From Spirometra erinaceieuropaei (Eukaryota; Platyhelminthes; Cestoda; Diphyllobothriidea; Diphyllobothriidae), in contig CACRXP010000170.1 in the NCBI GenBank assembly GCA_902702965.1, positions 280,755 to 344,754 on the forward strand: 64,000 nucleotides of DNA, given 5' to 3'. Within the stretch, counting starts at the first letter, position 1; each line of letters begins with the position of its first letter. Made by a program: the position numbers and the translations under genes. The notes below the pieces were generated by a model. It did not search any database. It saw only the letters and a list, made by a program, of their open reading frames with translations, and had not been told where the DNA came from. Shown one piece after another: positions 478 to 61,110 of the stretch.

Positions 478-680
478 CTCCCGGCAACGGTATAGAGAAG
501 GATCCCGACAGAGCAACGGGCTCGTGGCCCAGTGGTTAGAGGCATGGACTTCTAACCGACAGGTCGCGAGTTCGAGCCTCGGGTGTTCCAAAGTTCGAGG
601 TTGGGGACGACTGGCTGACGACGGCTAATAAGCCAGAAACGGCCATACCAGTCTCCCTTGTCTTTGTCAGTAATACCATT
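478..680 (+). mobile_element. tRNA-Arg-derived SINE (intronic)
   Basis: The head at about 518-589 resembles a tRNA. It has an A-box TGGCCCAGTGG, an anticodon arm with GACTTCTAAC (TCT, Arg type) and a B-box AGTTCGAGCC. A conserved tail follows: GACGGCTAATAAG, then CCAGTCTCCCTTGTCTTTGT. The copy lies just inside the carbonic anhydrase intron, in the same orientation as the gene. Similar copies occur at 15262, 31500, 34702, 42478, 42755 and 57642-57953. It is not a functional tRNA because the acceptor arms do not pair fully. Confidence 0.85.
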
Positions 681-3206: not shown

Positions 3207-3240
3207 GACGTTTCGGATTCCCACCCAAACACATCATCAG
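3207..3240 (-). ncRNA. Hammerhead-like ribozyme core in PLE-B 3' terminus
   Basis: The minus strand reads CTGATGA, a short hairpin containing GGGT...ATCC, then GAAACGTC. These match the conserved hammerhead core boxes. Cleavage competence is not shown: no convincing stem I was seen. Confidence 0.5.
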
Positions 3241-4655: not shown

Positions 4656-4688
4656 CTCATGATCGGTGGAGTAAGAATCCGAAACGTC
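4656..4688 (+). ncRNA. Hammerhead-like core, inverted 5' copy of PLE-B
   Basis: CTCATGA (one change from CTGATGA), a spacer ending in AATCC, then GAAACGTC. This is the inverted counterpart of the core at 3207-3240. Confidence 0.45.
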
Positions 4689-6428: not shown

Positions 6429-6877
6429 TTTGTCGTATGTGTCCTGTGACACAGCGTTCGTTGTCGCCAGTAGCAAGCTGTCGGGCGAACAGAATGGGGC
6501 CGAGTGAGATCCTTACCACAACAGTGAGGGTCAAACGTCCACTTGACAGGCTTATATACCTCACTTCATAAGGCCTATGACGTACTGATGTTCGATAACG
6601 ACCGTGAAACAGCTGTCTGCGTCTAGCCTGTTGTGCCCTTAACACGCTACTTATGTGTTTGGCAATACCTCGTCGTCAGATGACAATCTGCAAGGTCTCT
6701 CGGACGAATATAAAGGCTTGCATTCAGTCTTTAATTGTTTTTGATCTGTGGGTGCGCATTCATCCTTAATTAATCAGGCTTCTGAGAGAACTGATATTTC
6801 ATTTAACAAGGCAGCATATCCAACTTTGGCGATATTTTTGTTCGGTTAAACTTAAGGACGAACGATCACCTGCGTTT
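6211..6877. repeat. Tandem duplication, unit 1 (667 bp)
   Basis: This unit starts inside the right arm of the R1 copy (AAAATGCATGTCACTTAAGT) and ends at GATCACCTGCGTTT. The next 657 bp repeat it in the same order, including the anonymous stretch with GCAATACCTC and GACGAATAT. Confidence 0.9.
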
Positions 6878-14761: not shown

Positions 14762-14833
14762 GACGTTTCAGACGTCCAAAATTCTCACATCACCTTCCGT
14801 CATCAGGTTTTATGAGACAGGTCACGTACTGTA
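14762..14833 (-). repeat. Solo PLE terminus with hammerhead-like core, next to R1 end
   Basis: The minus strand reads CTGATGA (14800-14806), a 29-nt spacer, then GAAACGTC (14762-14769), as in PLE termini B and C. It is followed directly by GAGACAGGTCACGTACTGTA (14814-14833), which resembles the outer R1 end. No PLE coding sequence adjoins it. Confidence 0.45.
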
Positions 14834-15261
14834 TATGCCTAAAAACCACTCCCAATCACATGAAATGCGCAATTGTACAAAGTGTTCGGATTTCGTAAAT
14901 AAATAACCTGTACTTGTTGTGAATTTTGACAGCGTATTTCGAATTTTTCGCATGATTCATAATTTGCCCCTTTATTCTGTCTGGTTGCGGTTTCCCTGCA
15001 CGTTCATTGTGCTGACCAACGCAACCTACAAGGACGGTTTCCGGATGTCGTTCAAACAAGAATTTTTATCGCTTGAAGTTTAAAATACACACTGAAGTTC
15101 ATCATCAAATACGGCTTCATATAAATACTAGCATGCTGGTCTTGATAATACAAACTGACAATGTCTCAAAACCGAACGTTCAAGATATGCCTACTAAGGT
15201 GCACTAAAATAGACACACCACAATACAATGCGTCCCCCGATATCAGACTAGACCCGAAGGC
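14834..15261. other. No recognisable gene
   Basis: Nothing recognised. Confidence 0.35.
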
Positions 15262-15310
15262 CAACAACCCAGAAATGGCCATTCCAGTCTCCCTTGTCTC
15301 TGTCAGTGTG
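15262..15310 (+). mobile_element. SINE tail fragment
   Basis: CAGAAATGGCCATTCCAGTC then TCCCTTGTCTCTGTCAG matches the conserved tail of the tRNA-Arg SINE. The tRNA-like head is missing. Confidence 0.7.
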
Positions 15311-21320: not shown

Positions 21321-21840
21321 AGTTAGCCTTCAGAAGACGACGATGTGATCACTGGAACAAGATATTTATTTGCCTGACGTTTCGGATACTCGCTCGAGCC
21401 CATCATCAGAGACAGTGTTGAGGACCGTTGAGTGGAAGTGGGAAGGAGGGTGAAGTAGAGGGGTTCCGGTAAGACTGTGAGCACTGTAAGTGCGTGTGAC
21501 TGCACTCAGGGCGTCGGGAGGACGTGCGATCACCGTTTGGAGTCAGCCAGGGCAGACAGACTGCTTGTGTCAGCGTCTTCTGACAACAGAGAGCTGGGTT
21601 CGCTAGTCGAATGGCCACTGCTTCGGCTGTGGCTAGCATCCGTTTGCGCAGGCCTTTAGAGTAGTGTGCCAGTGTTTCTTTAACGTTGACCTGGTTGCTC
21701 GTAGCGATTAGATGTGCGAGAATTGAACTTGAAGTCAATCGATTCTCCCTTCTACCTAACCAGGCAGGCATGTGTTCGCATACTCTCTTTTCCGGACGCC
21801 TCGTTGTAGGAGCAATATATCCAGTCTACAATCAAATAGA
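21321..21840 (-). pseudogene. PLE GIY-YIG fragment with 3' terminus
   Basis: Minus frame: APTTRRPEKRVCEHMPAWLG, then SSSILAHLIATSNQVNVKE, AEAVAIRLANPALCCQK and CLPW. This is the C-terminal GIY-YIG segment of family A. The 3' terminus with its hammerhead-like core (21376-21409: CTGATGATGGG ... GAAACGTC) follows. The RT is missing, so the copy is 5'-truncated at about 21840, within the endonuclease. Confidence 0.8.
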
Positions 21841-22605: not shown

Positions 22606-23231
22606 AGTCCCAGGAAGTAGTCTTGAAGAAGGAGACACGATCGCCTTGACAAGAGCTTTATTAGCCTGACGTCGCCAGTTCTCAAGTCGAGGCACATTCA
22701 ACGAGATCCGGCCACACATTCAAATTCGACGAGGCCGAAATTCTTGCAAGAGGTGACAACCGTGTTAGCCGGGGGCTACTTGAATCAAGGTTTACTGGTC
22801 TCCAGTCCATTAACAAGTGCAATGAACTTCCCCCTCTATACTCGGTGCCGAGACTTCGCCTAGGCGGAGTAATTAGCCACACGGGGAGCGCACAGGTGAA
22901 CATTTTTACCAACACCAGGGTCAGCCTGTCAGATGGTTGAGCAATCATCACACCAACATCCAACACACGTGATGAAATTGCAGCAATTAACGACGCGAAC
23001 GTCGACCATCAAACAATTAGCACACCAAGTGCGACGATCCCGGATGAAGAGGGGAGCCATGAATTTTCATAGGTATGCGGTAGCATGGCGACCGTTTCCT
23101 GTAAATACTGCAGCCCCTTGTGCATGAACCACCCGTATCTGCTTTTTGTCTCTGATGATGGGTTTGAGCAAGGATCCGAAAATCCAGGCTAATAAAGCTT
23201 TTGTCCCAGCGATCGTGTCTCCTTCTTTAAG
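22605..23231 (+). pseudogene. PLE family B/A-like GIY-YIG tail with both termini
   Basis: The segment starts with an inverted terminus (GAAGGAGACACGATCG at 22628) and ends with the same terminus in direct orientation (CGATCGTGTCTCCTTC at 23211-23226). Between them the plus strand encodes a GIY-YIG tail: FKFDEAEILARGDNRVSRGL, LLYSVPRLRLGG-type sequence and ISHTGSAQV, with stops. The end carries a hammerhead-like core at 23152-23185 (CTGATGA ... CCGAAAATCC, the last box mutated). Confidence 0.75.
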
Positions 23232-28984: not shown

Positions 28985-29290
28985 CGGCAGAATAAGGAGA
29001 CACAATCGCTAGGACAGGAGCTTTATTCGCCTGACGTTTCGGATTACTGTTCGAATCCATCATCAGAGACAAAAGCAGATACGGGTGGTTCATGCACAAG
29101 GGGCTGCAGTATTTAGAGGATGCAGTCGCCATTCTACCGCGGCTCCCCTCCCCAAGGATCGTCAAGGATCTTTGCCCTTGATGTGATGACTGTTTATTGA
29201 TGTTTTTGTCTCTGATGATGGGTCCGGGCAGGAATCCAAAACGTCAGACGAATAAAGCTCTTGTCCCAGCAATCGTCTCTCCTTCTTCAC
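28985..29290. repeat. Head-to-head PLE termini forming an inverted repeat
   Basis: A minus-oriented terminus with its leader (28992-29160) is followed within about 45 bp by a plus-oriented terminus (29205-29285). Each has the hammerhead-like boxes: 29033-29066 minus (CTGATGA ... GAAACGTC) and 29212-29245 plus (CTGATGA ... AAAACGTC). No PLE coding sequence remains. The arms could pair as a long hairpin. Confidence 0.75.
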
Positions 29291-31094: not shown

Positions 31095-31499
31095 TTCTTT
31101 GTGGTCGCGGTCTTGAGTTTTCCCTATTTTGATGATTTGCGCGTTCCTCGACGGCATTTCATGAGATAGAGTTCGTCGTCGCCTGCTATTGCAATAAGTG
31201 TTTGCGTAGACTATCTTCAATCTGACTGAGATGCTTTAGACTAAGATTAGTTTTTCTCTAAGGAACATAAGAACTTCTACAGGTAAAATGACATTTGTAG
31301 AAAGAGCATTGTGGTCTCTCCGCATCGCATTGAATTCAGTGGTTTCTGCTGAAATAAACTGGTAGTCTCTGCACTCTATTATAGTCGTCTAGTCTCTAGA
31401 AGAACTCCTCGACTCCTCGTTTTCTTCCTGTCCCTATAGGGTGCTAGATAGGTTATTTTGCCAGTTAACAAGTCAATAACATTGAGGAAAGTAATATTG
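31095..31499. other. No recognisable gene
   Basis: Nothing recognised. Confidence 0.35.
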
Positions 31500-31595
31500 G
31501 CAAGGGAGACTAGAATTACCAGTTCTGACTTATTAGACGTCGTCTGCCAGTCATACCCAACCCCAAAAAGTTGAACACCCGAGTCTGGAACTTGA
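31500..31595 (-). mobile_element. SINE tail fragment
   Basis: GCAAGGGAGACTAG, GACTTATTAGACGTCGTCTG and CAGTCATACCCAACCCC are the reverse complement of the SINE tail and body. Confidence 0.7.
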
Positions 31596-34701: not shown

Positions 34702-34905
34702 GCCATCACCGACAAATACGAGGGAGACTTGAATGACCATTTCTTACCTATTAGCCTTTGGCAGCCAGTCATACCCAGCCCCGAAGTATGGGACGCCTGA
34801 ACCCTTAACCTGCGACTCGGTTGGGCTCAAGAGAGAGCCCGTAAGACTCAAAGGAACGAGTTATTTCCGTAAGAACGATCGATGAGCGCCCCTCTACCGT
34901 GGGTC
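34702..34905 (-). mobile_element. SINE fragment with rearranged 5' extension
   Basis: CATCACCGACAAATACGAGG and GGCAGCCAGTCATACCCAGC match the SINE body in reverse. The piece at about 34854-34895 (GGAACGAGTTATTTCCGTAA, GAACGATCG) is the SINE 5' extension in the opposite orientation, so the copy is rearranged. Confidence 0.65.
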
Positions 34906-40263: not shown

Positions 40264-40297
40264 GAGCTTTCGGTCTCGTATAGGAAGCTACCGTCAG
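40264..40297 (-). ncRNA. Hammerhead-like core in PLE-D 3' terminus
   Basis: The minus strand gives CTGACGG, a hairpin region, then GAAAGCTC. Here a stem I is possible: the CACAGTCTCT just before the core can pair largely with AGAGATCGTG about 30 nt after it. This makes it the most ribozyme-like of the termini. Confidence 0.5.
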
Positions 40298-42477: not shown

Positions 42478-42997
42478 GAATGTTATTACCGACAAAAACA
42501 AGGGAGACTGCAATGATCATTTCTGGCTTATTGGCCGTCCTCAGCAAGTTATACCCCTTCCCGACCTGTTAGTTAGAAGTCCAGTCCTCTAACCATTGAG
42601 CCACGAAACCGTCGCCCTGTCAGTTTCGATCGGGAATATACAATGGTGGGGAGCGTTCACCGATCGTTCTTACGGGCCTCACTCGTTCCGTTGTGCCTTA
42701 CGCGCTGTCTCACGAACCCAAGCAGCAGCCGCACAGCGGCGCATGATATAAGCAGAATTGCATTACCGACAAAGACAAGGAAGACCGGAATGGCCACTTC
42801 TCGCGTATCAGCCGTCGTCAGTCAGTCATACCCGACCCCCAAGTGTGGCTCTAACTCGTGACCTGTTAGTTAGACATTCACGCCTCTAACCACTGGGCCA
42901 CGAGCCCCTTGCCATTTTGGTTTCGATCGGAAATATACAATGGTGGAGAGCGTTCACCGATCGTTCTTACGAAAATCACTCGTTCCGTATTACCATG
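42478..42997 (-). mobile_element. Two SINE copies in direct tandem
   Basis: Copies at 42478-42695 and 42755-42997, both minus. Each has a tRNA-Arg-like head (reverse of GTTAGTTAGA...CCTCTAACCA; the anticodon loop reads TTCTAAC in the first and TCTAAC in the second), a body and tail. A shared 5' extension reads GAGCGTTCACCGATCGTTCT on the plus strand. The second copy keeps the better A and B boxes. Confidence 0.85.
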
Positions 42998-53390: not shown

Positions 53391-53994
53391 ACGGAGACAC
53401 GAACGCTGGGACAGGAGCTTTGTAAGCCTGCCTTTTCCGATCCCTGCTCGAACCCATCATCGAAGACAATAGCAGATACGGGCGGTTCATGCACAAGGGG
53501 CTGCAGTATTTACAGGAAACAGTCGCCATGATGCCGCATACCTAGGAAAATGCATGGCTCCCCTCTTCATCCGGGATCGTCGCACTTGGTGTGCTAATTG
53601 TTTGATGGCCGACGTTCGCGTCGTTAATTGCTGCGATTTCATACGTGCGTTGGATGTCGGTGTGATGATTGCTCGACCATCTGACGCACCGTCCCCGGTG
53701 TTGGGACAAGTTTTCACCTGTGTGCTCCCTGCATGGCTAATTACTCCGCCTAGGCGAAGTCTCAGCACCGAGTACAGAAGCGGAAGTTCATTGCATTTGT
53801 TAATAAACTGGGGGCCAGCAAACCATGATTAAAATAGCTTCCGGCTCACGCGGTTGTCACCGCTTGCGAGAATTTCGGTCTCGTCGAATTTGAATGCGTG
53901 GCCGGATCTGGTCGAATGAGCCGCGACTTGAGAGCCGGCGACGTCAGGTTAATAAAGCTCTTGTCCCAGCGATCGTGTCTCCTTCTTCAAGACT
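53391..53994 (-). pseudogene. PLE GIY-YIG tail with both termini
   Basis: The mirror image of 22605-23231. The minus strand carries the GIY-YIG tail (FKFDETEILASG-like, then LRLGGVISHAGS) and, at the low-coordinate end, a degenerate hammerhead-like terminus (53429-53465). The other terminus lies at 53940-53990 in direct orientation. Confidence 0.75.
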
Positions 53995-55299: not shown

Positions 55300-55349
55300 C
55301 GAAGAAGAATGAGTCCTTTGGGAAAATGAACAAACTTTATTTCGTAAAT

Positions 55350-55380
55350 TTTCGAGTCTGGTTCCCCAGCTCGTCTTCAG
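55350..55380 (-). ncRNA. Hammerhead-like core in PLE-E 3' terminus
   Basis: The minus strand reads CTGAAGA, C, then a hairpin GAGCTGG-GGAA-CCAGACTC, then GAAAATTTA. Stem II is well formed (GAG/CTC plus CTGG/CCAG) with a GGAA loop. One extra base sits between the CTGANGA box and stem II, as in the other families here. Confidence 0.55.
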
Positions 55381-55462: not shown

Positions 55463-55828
55463 TTAATGCTGTGGGCTGATGTCACGTCTTGATTGGCTGT
55501 TATTTTTCCATTTTTCTTTGAGACTTGTGTACATGGTATCAAGGTCGATGCGTCGATTGATGCATGAATCATCAGAGTGAACGGCCTCTAGGAATTCTCG
55601 GCCTTTCTTATATGGGCAGGAACCGACAATGCGTGTTTTATCCCAAGCGAATTTGTGCCCAGTTTCAAGAGTATGCATGGCGACTTGGGATAAGTGGTCC
55701 CGCCTCTTCACTGCCAATTTGTGTTCATGTAGGCGTGTAGAGGCGGATTTTCCGGTTCGACCACAATACACTGCATTACAAGTGCCACATGGCATCTTAA
55801 AGACTACTTTTTTTATCCAAATAGCCAA
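55463..55828 (-). pseudogene. PLE-E GIY-YIG endonuclease domain
   Basis: 121 codons: KKVVFKMPCGTCNAVYCGRT, GKSASTRLHEHKLAVKRRDH and LSQVAMHTLETGHKFAWDKT, then RIVGS and EFLEAVHSDDSCINRRID. Catalytic-site landmarks of the PLE GIY-YIG are present (YCG in place of YIG, then Arg, His, Glu in RTG...RLHEH). It is out of frame with RT by one shift near 55820. Confidence 0.85.
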
Positions 55829-56879
55829 CCCTTACCTTAGGGTGTACGAGCTGATTGCTTAGTGTGGTAGTCAATTTGTGAGCCACTTGTATTTGGTGCT
55901 TCCTCAGGTGTCTTTCAACGAGTTCAGACACATTTTTAATGTAGGGAAGCGTTCGCCAATGTTTTGGTTTTGGCGTCTGATCGGAACAATCTAGTTCCTT
56001 CTTTCTTTCTTTTGATTCCCGCTCTTTCATGCATCTGCGTACAAAATCTCTGGGGTAGCCGTTTTGGGAAAATAGGTTAAATAGATAATTGAGTTCTTCT
56101 TTGTAACCTTCGTTCTCAGAGCAATTTGTCTTTGCTCGATTAAGTAGGGTCTTAACAGCACTCCGTTTGTGAGCCATAGGGTGGTTGCTCTCGTAATGTA
56201 GGATAACTTCCGCGTAAGTTTCTTTGCGGTATACTGATGTCTGGAATGTCCCGTCAGTTTTTCGCTGTACGAGGACATCAAGAAATGGGAGTTTGCTGTT
56301 AGCTTCTCTTTCGAGCGTGAACGTAATTCCCGGTAGTGTTGAGTTGATAGCTTTATGCAGAGTTTCTAGCTGATCTCTCTTGACGATGACAAAGGTGTCA
56401 TCGACGTAGCATACCCACAATTTGGGGTTGAATAATGGTAAGGCCATAGCCTCTAATTTTTGCATTGTGACTACACCCAAAAATCCAGAAATAGGTGACC
56501 CCATAGGAGCCACTTTCAGCTGTCGATAACAGTCAAGTGCGAACGAGAAGTTCGTTTCCAGACATAGGTCCAAGAGTTCAAGCAAAGCAGATGCAGGAAC
56601 ATCCATGTCGTAGGACTGTAAGAGTTATTTTGTGCACTGCCTTGCCAAATCGAGTGGTATGGACGTGAATAGAGAGATGACATCGAACGACACCATTATC
56701 TCATCTGATTCAATAGTGAGTCCTCTTATCTTGTCTAGGAATTCAACTGAATTCCCGATTGAAGTCTCACAATCCTTTGTTAAGGGATGGAGTTTGTGAA
56801 ATAGCCATTTAGAGATTTTGTAATTCGGTGCACCGATTAGTGATACTATCGGTCGCAATGGTACGTCAGGTTTGTGCAC
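55797..56879 (-). pseudogene. PLE-E reverse transcriptase with one stop codon
   Basis: A single frame from 56879 to 55797 is interrupted only by TAA at 56625-56627. Upstream of the stop: VPLRPIVSLIGAPNYKISKW and motif A VSFDVISLFTSIP. Downstream: KVAPMGSPISGFLGVV (motif B), CYVDDTFVIVKRD (motif C with YVDD, residues 67-70 of the downstream part), LPFLDVLVQRK, SVYRKETYAEVILHYESNHP and LPYIKNVSELVERHL. Apart from the nonsense codon the RT is intact, so this copy is relatively young or was recently active. Confidence 0.9.
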
Positions 56880-57641: not shown

Positions 57642-57953
57642 TGGCATTACTGACAAAGACAAAGGAGACCGGAGTGTCCATTTCTGGCCTATTAGTTGTC
57701 GTCAGCCCGTCATACCCAACCCCCACGTGTGGATCACCTGGGGCTCGAACTCGTGACCTGTTAGTTAGATGTCCAACACCTCTAACCACCGGACCACGGC
57801 CCGTTGTCCTGTCGGTAGCCATCGGCGAATATACGATGGTATATAGGTCGGGAGTTCGAGCCTCGGATGATCCACATTTCGGGGTTGGGTATGACTGACT
57901 GACGACGGCTAATAAGTCAGAAATGGCCATCCCAGTCTCCCTTGTCTTTGTCC
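57642..57953. mobile_element. Two SINEs in inverted orientation
   Basis: 57642-57838 is a minus copy (head near 57750-57800). 57846-57953 is a plus copy starting within the B-box (GGAGTTCGAGCC) and ending in the full tail. Their bodies form an inverted repeat. Confidence 0.8.
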
Positions 57954-58540
57954 GAATGCCTGTAGATGGAGTGAGCATCGAAGAACCACGCCTCGAGAGT
58001 AAGCCGTTTTGCTTCTATGTTGCCCTGACCTAAGATGGTAGCTCGCCGGAGATCGAAAGTACGCCCAGTTACTCCAACTTGTGCTTCTAATTGAGAATTT
58101 GGGTCTAATCTCCGATTACGCCTTGTAATCGAGTCTGCAATTTCCGCCCGGTTTCTCCCACATAGCTGCAGTCAACCTCAGTGCAATTTATTTTGTAGAT
58201 GACTGCTGAGTTTTCAGAGAGTGGCAATGGGTCATTAGGTTGCATCAGACGGCGTCGAATTGTTGCCTGATTCGATGGACTATGCCTACTCTGGCGGGTT
58301 GTAATAGTCAAGATACCGCTTCAGAGACCCCTTTAGCGTATGGAATGACCTTCCACATTTCGGGTTGCTGCTCATTTGGTCGTCGTCTGTGTGCCCGACG
58401 TCGGCTTCTCTCGACGAAATGTCTGAGATAACCATTGGTTGTTTGTCTGTATTGCTTGCTTCTGTCCAAAACTTCCGAACCCGAATGTTATAAACGCGGT
58501 TCGTAGGAGTTTTGTTCATCATGCATCCCCTAGTCAATGC
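57954..58540 (-). pseudogene. PLE family C fragment (GIY-YIG)
   Basis: The minus strand contains linker sequence (CGRSFHTLKGSLKRYL), AVIYKINCTEVDCSYVGETG then RKLQTRLQ (GIY-YIG core at about 58130-58200). The tail RRLDPNSQLEAQVGVTGRTF, DLRRATILGQGN and LTLEAWFFDAHSI reaches 57960. Frames change several times. Closest to the copy at 11517-11700. Confidence 0.8.
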
Positions 58541-60629: not shown

Positions 60630-61110
60630 GGGAATTGTTTGGCTGACGTTTCGAAGAGCTTGGGCGGCTCTCAACTATCAAAGCGTCTAGTGAATTTAGA
60701 ATAGACAGCCGAATTAGTTTGGCTTGGGCTGATCGATTTTTTTCTTCCATTCGCTGCCATGGCGTACTGGCCGTCGTTTGTAAGTATTGATGGCCTCCTG
60801 TGTTGCGAGTCATCACCTTAATTTGGGTTAGCTATGTTTGTATCCCCTTTGGATAACTTGGTTGGCGCTCCGTGTTTGCTTGGGATTCTTAAGCTCCGTG
60901 TGACCGTCTTGTCCTCGTCACCGCCTGTGTAGTGATGCAGGACTTTATAGGCCGCAAGAAGGTCTAGATGCCTGTTGATGGAGTTGCTATCTGAGTACCA
61001 GGCCTCAAGTGTGAGGCATTCTGTCCTTGAGGTGTCCCGGCTTAAGACAGATGCTCCTTGAAGGTCAAAACTGTGGCCACTTTTTCCGACGTGAGTCGCA
61101 AGCTATTAGG
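60630..61110 (-). pseudogene. PLE family C 3' end with GIY-YIG tail
   Basis: Minus: HVGKSGHSFDLQGASVLSRD, then LTLEAWYSDSNSINRHLDLL and AAYKVL (about 61100-60930). A terminus follows, with TTGATAG, a GAGAGC/GCTCTTC hairpin and GAAACGTC at 60644-60680. It matches the inverted ends of the copy at 9862-12175. Confidence 0.75.

Follow-up and report, generated by a model that had tools for sequence, protein, structure and literature searches.

Why does a short palindrome stand in place of stem III in the hammerhead-like motifs of this stretch of Spirometra erinaceieuropaei DNA (hereafter the window, 64,000 nucleotides), and are these motifs ribozymes of Penelope-like elements (PLEs)? A sequence-only reading of the window had listed ten sites in families A to E and proposed that each family kept a palindrome under selection for dimeric self-cleavage. 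Parts of the report on the S. erinaceieuropaei v2.0 genome (PMC8166898) assign 10.4% of it to LINE/Penelope, and its main text has no mention of hammerhead or ribozyme; among the papers of a partial library, none treats hammerheads in tapeworms by its title or the start of its abstract.

Hammerheads of PLEs are described, in passages of PMC6155905, PMC7761336 and PMC6466107, as minimal, without helix III and possibly acting as dimers, and Lunse 2017 reports, according to its title, that PLE-associated hammerhead variants cleave as dimers. A palindromic stem III with dimeric folding appears in the legend of Fig. S8 of Perreault 2011 (PMC3088659). Passages of a 2020 review (PMC7761336) call the role of minimal PLE hammerheads still a mystery and contain the proposal that PLEs mobilise hammerhead-bearing non-autonomous elements. 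The diminished stem III, the double-hammerhead dimer and the association with PLEs are thus already published; new here are the enrichment of palindromes in family B, the overlap of the B hammerhead with a probable start codon together with the inverted pairs of B, and an unlisted family, F. The explanation that we favour, and consider probable, is that these are minimal type I hammerheads of PLEs and of a tRNA-like SINE that form an obligate double hammerhead through a self-complementary stem III and are predicted to cleave.

Hammerhead motifs in the window

A strict descriptor, which demanded 3 bp or more in stem I and in stem II, no more than one mismatch to CTGANGA, GAAANNT and H17, identified 4 sites in the window (4656 on the plus strand; 21376, 29033 and 55346 on the minus strand), all on the earlier list and one of them, 4656, with one core mismatch, compared to a mean of 0.23 and a maximum of 1 in 30 shuffles. 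A second descriptor demanded an exact core, a stem I of at least 4 bp and a stem II of at least 3 bp, and made no demand on palindromy. Applied to 264 kb chosen without regard to the motif, made up of the window plus twenty 10-kb stretches, it yielded 16 matches, with a palindromic stem III (ACGT, AATT or ATGGCCAT) in 12, whereas 60 Mb of first-order Markov sequence yielded 4 matches, 1 of them palindromic, which corresponds to 0.018 and 0.0044 expected per 264 kb. The string pattern CTGANGA, 8 to 24 bases, GAAA occurs 14 times in the window vs. 3.5 times in shuffles (largest shuffle, 10), which, as a pattern without stems, is weak evidence. Hammerhead identity and association with PLEs are supported by the descriptors that include stems and by the RT and GIY-YIG-like frames that adjoin the D and E hammerheads. 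The features of the window are as follows.

55346..55380, minus strand: family E hammerhead, CGT-CTGAAGA-C-GAG..CTC-GAA-AATT-T-ACG, 82 bases downstream of the GIY-YIG-like PLE frame
55463..56606, minus strand: PLE frames of family E (RT piece 55797-56606; GIY-YIG-like piece 55463-55828)
29033..29066, minus strand: family B hammerhead, the best copy in the window, GTCT-CTGATGA-T-GGATT..AATCC-GAA-ACGT-C-AGGC
29212..29245, plus strand: family B, inverted partner of 29033, G12 changed to A, decayed
21376..21409, minus strand: family B hammerhead, core intact, ACGT
23152..23185, plus strand: family B, intact core, stem III AATC and non-palindromic, decayed member
3207..3240, minus strand: family B, mismatches in stems I and II, decayed
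4656..4688, plus strand: family B, core CTCATGA
53417..53470, minus strand: family B, decayed, unlisted earlier
40264..40297, minus strand: family D, hammerhead-like, core CTGACGG, stem III AGCT, stem I GTCT/AGAC, decayed
14762..14806, minus strand: listed family C site, core string present, stem I of about 1 bp; rejected as a hammerhead
60644..60680, minus strand: listed family A site, core TTGATAG; rejected as a working hammerhead
602..665, plus strand: family F (tRNA-like SINE) hammerhead, GACTGG-CTGACGA-C-GGCT-AATA-AGCC-A-GAA-[8 nt]-H-CCAGTC; this copy reads ACGGCCAT
42494..42834, minus strand: two F hammerhead regions in direct order, 277 bp apart
57643..57960, both strands: F inverted pair (57655 minus and 57886 plus)
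15238-15301, 31496-31559 and 34714-34777: other F copies
6560..6654 (6579-6623), plus strand: provisional G copy, GACGTA-CTGATGT-T-..-T-GAA-ACAGCTGT-C-TGCGTC, core one base off
131-480: carbonic anhydrase exon at the left end, 67% identical to Dibothriocephalus latus

All ten listed sites carry the strings described for them or decayed forms of these, but only four pass the strict descriptor. An exact core with all helices is found among them at 21376, 29033 and 55350; several listed copies and the single D copy depart from the hammerhead core, and most copies in the window are dead. The intact B, E and F copies have the core CUGANGA, GAA, A15.1-U16.1 and H17. Families A and C as listed are unsupported, their cores or stems being too poor, and the palindrome ACATGT given for A falls away, since a search of the window for GAAACATGT found none. 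We confirmed palindromes of ACGT in B, of AGCT in the single D copy and of AATT in E (the earlier AAATTT includes A14), but not in every copy, as stem III at 23152 illustrates. The earlier list missed further B copies (e.g., 53417 on the minus strand), family F (e.g., 615 and 57899 on the plus strand, 42520 and 57681 on the minus strand) and the provisional family G (6560 on the plus strand). Scanning for hammerheads with Rfam, one of the checks that had been suggested, gave no match at either of two thresholds; we infer that the Rfam hammerhead models expect stem III inside one molecule.

Shared plan of the families

The families share one plan: stem I, CTGANGA, one extra base, stem II, GAA, palindrome, H17, stem I. 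Without CTGANGA and GAA, the representative sequences are:

B: GTCT / T / GGATTC..GAATCC / ACGT / C / AGGC
E: CGT / C / GAG..CTC / AATT / T / ACG
F: GACTGG / C / GGCT AATA AGCC / A / ATGGCCAT / T / CCAGTC
G: GACGTA / T / CGGC AACT GCCG / T / ACAGCTGT / C / TGCGTC

The extra base before stem II, already noticed in the sequence-only reading, is real: it is present in 15 of the 16 matches of the second descriptor, and most of the copies of B, E, F and G that were seen carry a pyrimidine there. The 7 F copies among these matches have an extra base also on the 3' side of stem II, and the two flanking bases of F may alternatively be an unpaired C.A step.

A stem III that has no loop cannot close within one molecule, so that a dimer is needed, and in the symmetrical dimer the two strands of stem III, like those of stem I, come from different copies. 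Two sense copies would pair through the self-complementary stem III (4 bp in B, D and E; 8 bp in F, perhaps also in G), and each copy would supply the substrate strand and stem I of its partner, whereby the junction would close to form a double hammerhead. Because two sense copies would be needed, cutting would be confined to multimeric or abundant element RNA and would yield unit lengths.

Alignment with MAFFT across families misaligned the 3' half and was replaced by a hand-made table of stem halves from seven representative copies. All seven copies can form the initial three base pairs of stem I, compared to 44% when halves are swapped between families; stem II forms in 100% (six copies, D left out) compared to 61% for swapped halves, and self-pairing of stem III reaches 93% vs. 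64%. This comparison is support, not proof, for the predicted stems, given that several of the copies were found by requiring stems.

The families differ in how well they are represented. D is known from one copy, 71-73% like B over about 67 bases. Relatives of E occur at the genomic loci L018, L038, L039 and L047; the E RT piece matches Pfam RVT_1 with E 3.5 × 10−5, below the curated cut-off, and a Pfam search with the E GIY-YIG piece gave no match, the GIY-YIG-like assignment having been made by eye. A Sparganum proliferum protein shares 76% identity with the RT frame at 55797-56606. An AATAAA lies a few bases past the predicted cleavage site in B and E (window 55335-55345), and in B it also forms the codons Asn-Lys. 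Of G, three copies were seen, L050:7401-7445, L050:7275-7319 and window 6579-6623, with one inverted pair among them; it is provisional because the copies are few and each is differently defective, stem II being good in one only.

Palindromic changes in family B

The B pattern with ACGT has at least 5,097 copies in the 758.7 Mb genome, and reversed-pattern controls have 0. Holding the flanks fixed, we counted variants of stem III over the whole genome, all counts being lower bounds: the first inner base is changed in at least 326 copies, the second in at least 349, and both in at least 32. With the letter shares of single changes read by eye from the first 100 of the 326 and the first 100 of the 349 places, 22.3 double changes are expected under independence, of which 7.8 would be palindromic. 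Observed are 32 and 21 (ATAT 13, AATT 7, AGCT 1), and the non-palindromic double changes number 11 vs. 14.5 expected. The palindromic share is significantly larger than expected (binomial p ≈ 4 × 10−4; p = 0.0013 at the 97.5th percentile of resampled letter shares), also when shuffling is confined to the 32 double changes (p = 0.004).

Because palindromic double changes exceed expectation, the B palindrome itself looks selected. The same excess could instead stem from a few B source copies that had ATAT or AATT and spread, with no selection for pairing. The counts are of copies and not of independent events, ATTT is also raised (7 vs. 3.2 expected) although it is non-palindromic, which counts against selection, and if ATAT is left out, 8 of 19 double changes are palindromic. 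Yet the sequences of stem-loop II differ in 12 of the 13 ATAT copies and in all 7 AATT copies, which speaks against one spreading variant, and we regard the spread of source copies as rather unlikely. Selection for a palindromic, dimer-only stem III, as put forward in the sequence-only reading, has thus gained support from the enriched double changes in B and from the palindromes that differ among B, D, E, F and perhaps G, but the idea itself had been published before.

Element ends and probable start codon in family B

Analysis of the B ends was based on 62 copies (66 were found; L023 and L026 were dropped for overlap with L022 and L025), which, since 30 of the loci had been fetched by a B pattern, are not a random sample. 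The sequence after the ribozyme stops either at a short end or 40 bp further on, and this long end with its 40-bp tail is present in 21 of the 62 copies. Among the 21 pairs of B copies less than 2 kb apart, 18 are divergent, 2 convergent and 1 direct. Exactly one long tail is found in 13 of the 18 divergent pairs, and 7 of the 18 share flank words of 10-15 bp, where mismatched flanks reach 10. Inverted copies are also usual for PLEs. The B ends thus have an optional tail and flank duplications; the loci seen do not include a complete B element. As a typical close B pair provides one sense and one antisense ribozyme, the dimer would need two transcripts or a longer tandem; direct tandems within 2 kb that could form dimers in cis are limited to 1 of the 21 pairs, in loci of 3 kb that cannot show longer units.

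At one inverted B insertion, both arms (L037:2161-2214 and L037:3078-3131) carry the identical rare changes AACT and CGGGC, so that its ends were apparently copied from the same RNA or from each other. Repeats of TTC or ATT continue from the ends of some B insertions at L009, L017 and L027; the TTCTTC end may have seeded them.

The B core CTGATGATGG reads CTG ATG ATG G, with A9, the extra U and the next G forming an AUG that is probably a start codon. The frame that begins there has no stop over 37 codons in 19 of the 21 long-tail copies, and the 40-bp tail carries it on to LLPGTRLFASIG; the ATG is still first in 17 of the 21, 10 of the 21 having been fetched by a pattern that demands ATG. Two B subfamilies differ at 23 sites, 12 of them third positions (p = 0.048), and 10 of the 18 changed codons are synonymous. 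Counted from the start of the AUG, the cut is predicted at 28 nt, inside the reading frame; cleavage there would leave, in place of a translatable RNA, a cut one that has a 5'-hydroxyl end, a putative RNA switch. That a start codon explains the extra base in general was rejected because E and F carry C (once A) at this position.

ACGT in B also encodes part of Pro-Lys-Arg-Gln, which counts against a pure RNA reading and allows for an explanation in which the stem III bases are conserved as the coding start of a PLE protein and not for RNA pairing. The open frame, the retained ATG and the excess of third-position differences are all in line with this. However, in the single D copy the codon CGT (Arg) is replaced by GCT (Ala), which alters two bases and leaves stem III palindromic, the palindromic double changes in B are enriched despite the amino acid change, and F, which is not known as coding, has a palindrome of 8 bp. 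Conservation for coding is, in our judgement, distinctly improbable as the reason for the stem III bases, and pairing between copies is the reading that we retain.

Family F, a SINE-like carrier

The exact 32-base core of F with its palindrome has 4,360 matches in the 758.7 Mb genome, compared to 0 for the reversed control, and a BLAST search of the fetched loci with a 58-nt query identified 32 F copies. Stem III of F is the straight, loopless 8-bp palindrome ATGGCCAT. The sequence upstream is a tRNA-like head, in which an Arg-TCT-like anticodon arm was recognised by eye; ARAGORN made 0 calls on F with default settings and weak Arg calls at a relaxed threshold that also yields noise, and it found no tRNA in the window.

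F copies occur in inverted and in direct order. The first 100 places listed include 16 neighbours less than 2 kb apart, by eye 9 divergent, 6 direct and 1 convergent, and 4 of the 6 direct neighbours are spaced at 312-314 bp. Close pairs in the fetched loci, based on 30 of the 32 copies, number 8 (divergent in 4 cases, direct in 3 and convergent in 1). The F-bearing loci include L042, L045, L047, L048, L051 and L052; L051 and L052 each have two direct copies 312 bp apart, with an inverted copy in front in L052. Of the 4 divergent pairs, 2 (L042 and L048) each combine a long end with a short one and share a flank word of 8 bp; as mismatched F flanks also reach such words (8 and 10, once each in 12 comparisons), the F duplications are suggestive only.

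Compensatory changes across genomic copies, which had been named as a check of the stems, do not exceed shuffles within F: 86.2% of cells are paired vs. 86.3% in shuffles (24 of the 32 copies, with 8 partial or poor copies omitted). Judged from its sequence, F is likely a new variant that unites features of retrozymes, SINEs and PLEs. We put forward tentatively, as a possibility that falls short of the probable, that F, as a tRNA-headed SINE, is a retrozyme and at the same time a parasite of PLEs; an obligate double hammerhead would cut its 312-nt units from tandem transcripts, and a PLE protein would insert the RNA.

Folding predictions

Two 45-nt F copies folded together without constraint reach −36.9 kcal/mol, compared to −12.5 kcal/mol for each alone (dimer z-score −2.9 vs. 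shuffles), and the minimum-energy fold of the two contains all helices of the double hammerhead. It also pairs A14 with H17 of the partner, closing the junction, which counts against the predicted structure; the exact double hammerhead lies 1.8 kcal/mol above this minimum. The comparison of monomer and dimer folding that had been called for therefore favours the dimer in F but is unfavourable for B, D and E: two separate hairpins, which pair the core itself, are 15-23 kcal/mol more stable than the double hammerhead of B, and the double hammerheads of D and E lie 13.5 and 8.8 kcal/mol above two monomers. Of two G copies folded, one gave a partly double-hammerhead structure and the other did not.

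Folding of the 359-nt genomic F tandems (n = 2) gave probabilities of 0.65 and 0.98 for stem III and of 0.55 and 0.68 for the outer stem I. The inner stem I was 0.00 in both tandems, L051 and L052, and stem II of the second copy was 0.00 in L052. Adding 40-nt flanks to L051, the one tandem tried, led to loss of the dimer helices. Stem III was kept in 16 of 20 folds with a shuffled spacer, and the two dimer stems I were together absent from all 54 folds with a scrambled palindrome, a control that says little because the inner stem I is 0.00 in the unscrambled tandems too.

The hairpin that B favours suggests another explanation, namely that the conserved B block forms just a simple hairpin, in which CTGATG pairs with CGTCAG and the pairing extends into stem II; it might be, for example, a binding site for a PLE protein, with the hammerhead core as a by-product. 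This hairpin is the minimum-energy monomer fold of the B copies tried (−12.4 to −16.6 kcal/mol), and, according to parts of PMC11167929, reverse transcription of the anole PLE begins in an AC-rich stem-loop. However, E and F keep the core, GAA and the junction, yet by eye AATT and ATGGCCAT do not pair with CTGANG, so that these two families cannot form a hairpin of the B type; nor does a simple hairpin predict the palindromic double changes. We consider it unlikely that a simple hairpin accounts for the B block, and relate the double-hammerhead reading to known systems below.

Relation to known hammerheads

B, D and E belong to the known kind of minimal PLE hammerhead (Cervera and de la Pena 2014; Lunse, Weinberg and Breaker 2017), as described in reviews: they are alike in the type I core, the missing or diminished stem III, the position at the PLE end and the proposed dimeric action. 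They differ in the extra pyrimidine before stem II, and the present analysis adds a new host genome, a genome-wide test of the palindrome and close B pairs that are mostly inverted. The hammerheads of the newt satellite, ASBVd and Aedes (passages of PMC3088659) likewise have a palindromic stem and loop III that allow a double hammerhead; their stem III has a loop, whereas here there is none, and F has a straight 8-bp palindrome.

De la Pena and Flores 2001 describe, by the title, an extra nucleotide in the core of a viroid hammerhead. The families here likewise have one extra base, mostly a pyrimidine (B, E, F and G), which in B completes the AUG. The extra nucleotide of the viroid is said to lie between A9 and 10.1.

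Similar to B in layout is the Poseidon PLE of Anolis, for which parts of PMC11167929 describe a hammerhead that overlaps the start of the frame, which begins at stem II, an optional tail of 30-40 bp, and PLEs in tandem or partial tandem. The cut lies 26 nt after the start codon in Poseidon vs. a predicted 28 nt in B. According to the same parts, the anole ribozyme depends on added protein for cleavage, and elements with a mutated ribozyme are still inserted in vitro. The similarity between the anole PLE and B thus supports a shared layout, with a warning on function.

F resembles metazoan non-LTR retrozymes and the Sj-alpha SINE-like elements (parts of PMC7229834 and PMC7761336; Laha 2000) in being a small hammerhead repeat with a 312-bp tandem unit and a tRNA-like head, and differs from them in that it lacks a stem III loop and can have inverted ends.

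The need of PLE hammerheads for a dimer has so far been argued from their shape and from one cleavage paper, as its title states it. With thousands of copies in one genome, the dimer idea becomes testable from sequence alone. In F, two proposals meet: mobilisation of non-autonomous hammerhead elements by PLEs, and double hammerheads as the necessary outcome of stems III that have no loop. Its 312-nt unit allows tests of either. If F is indeed a parasite of PLEs, insertion by a PLE protein would explain why its inverted insertions pair a long end with a short one, and cleavage only as a dimer would limit cutting to multimeric RNA and so act as a length gauge of F.
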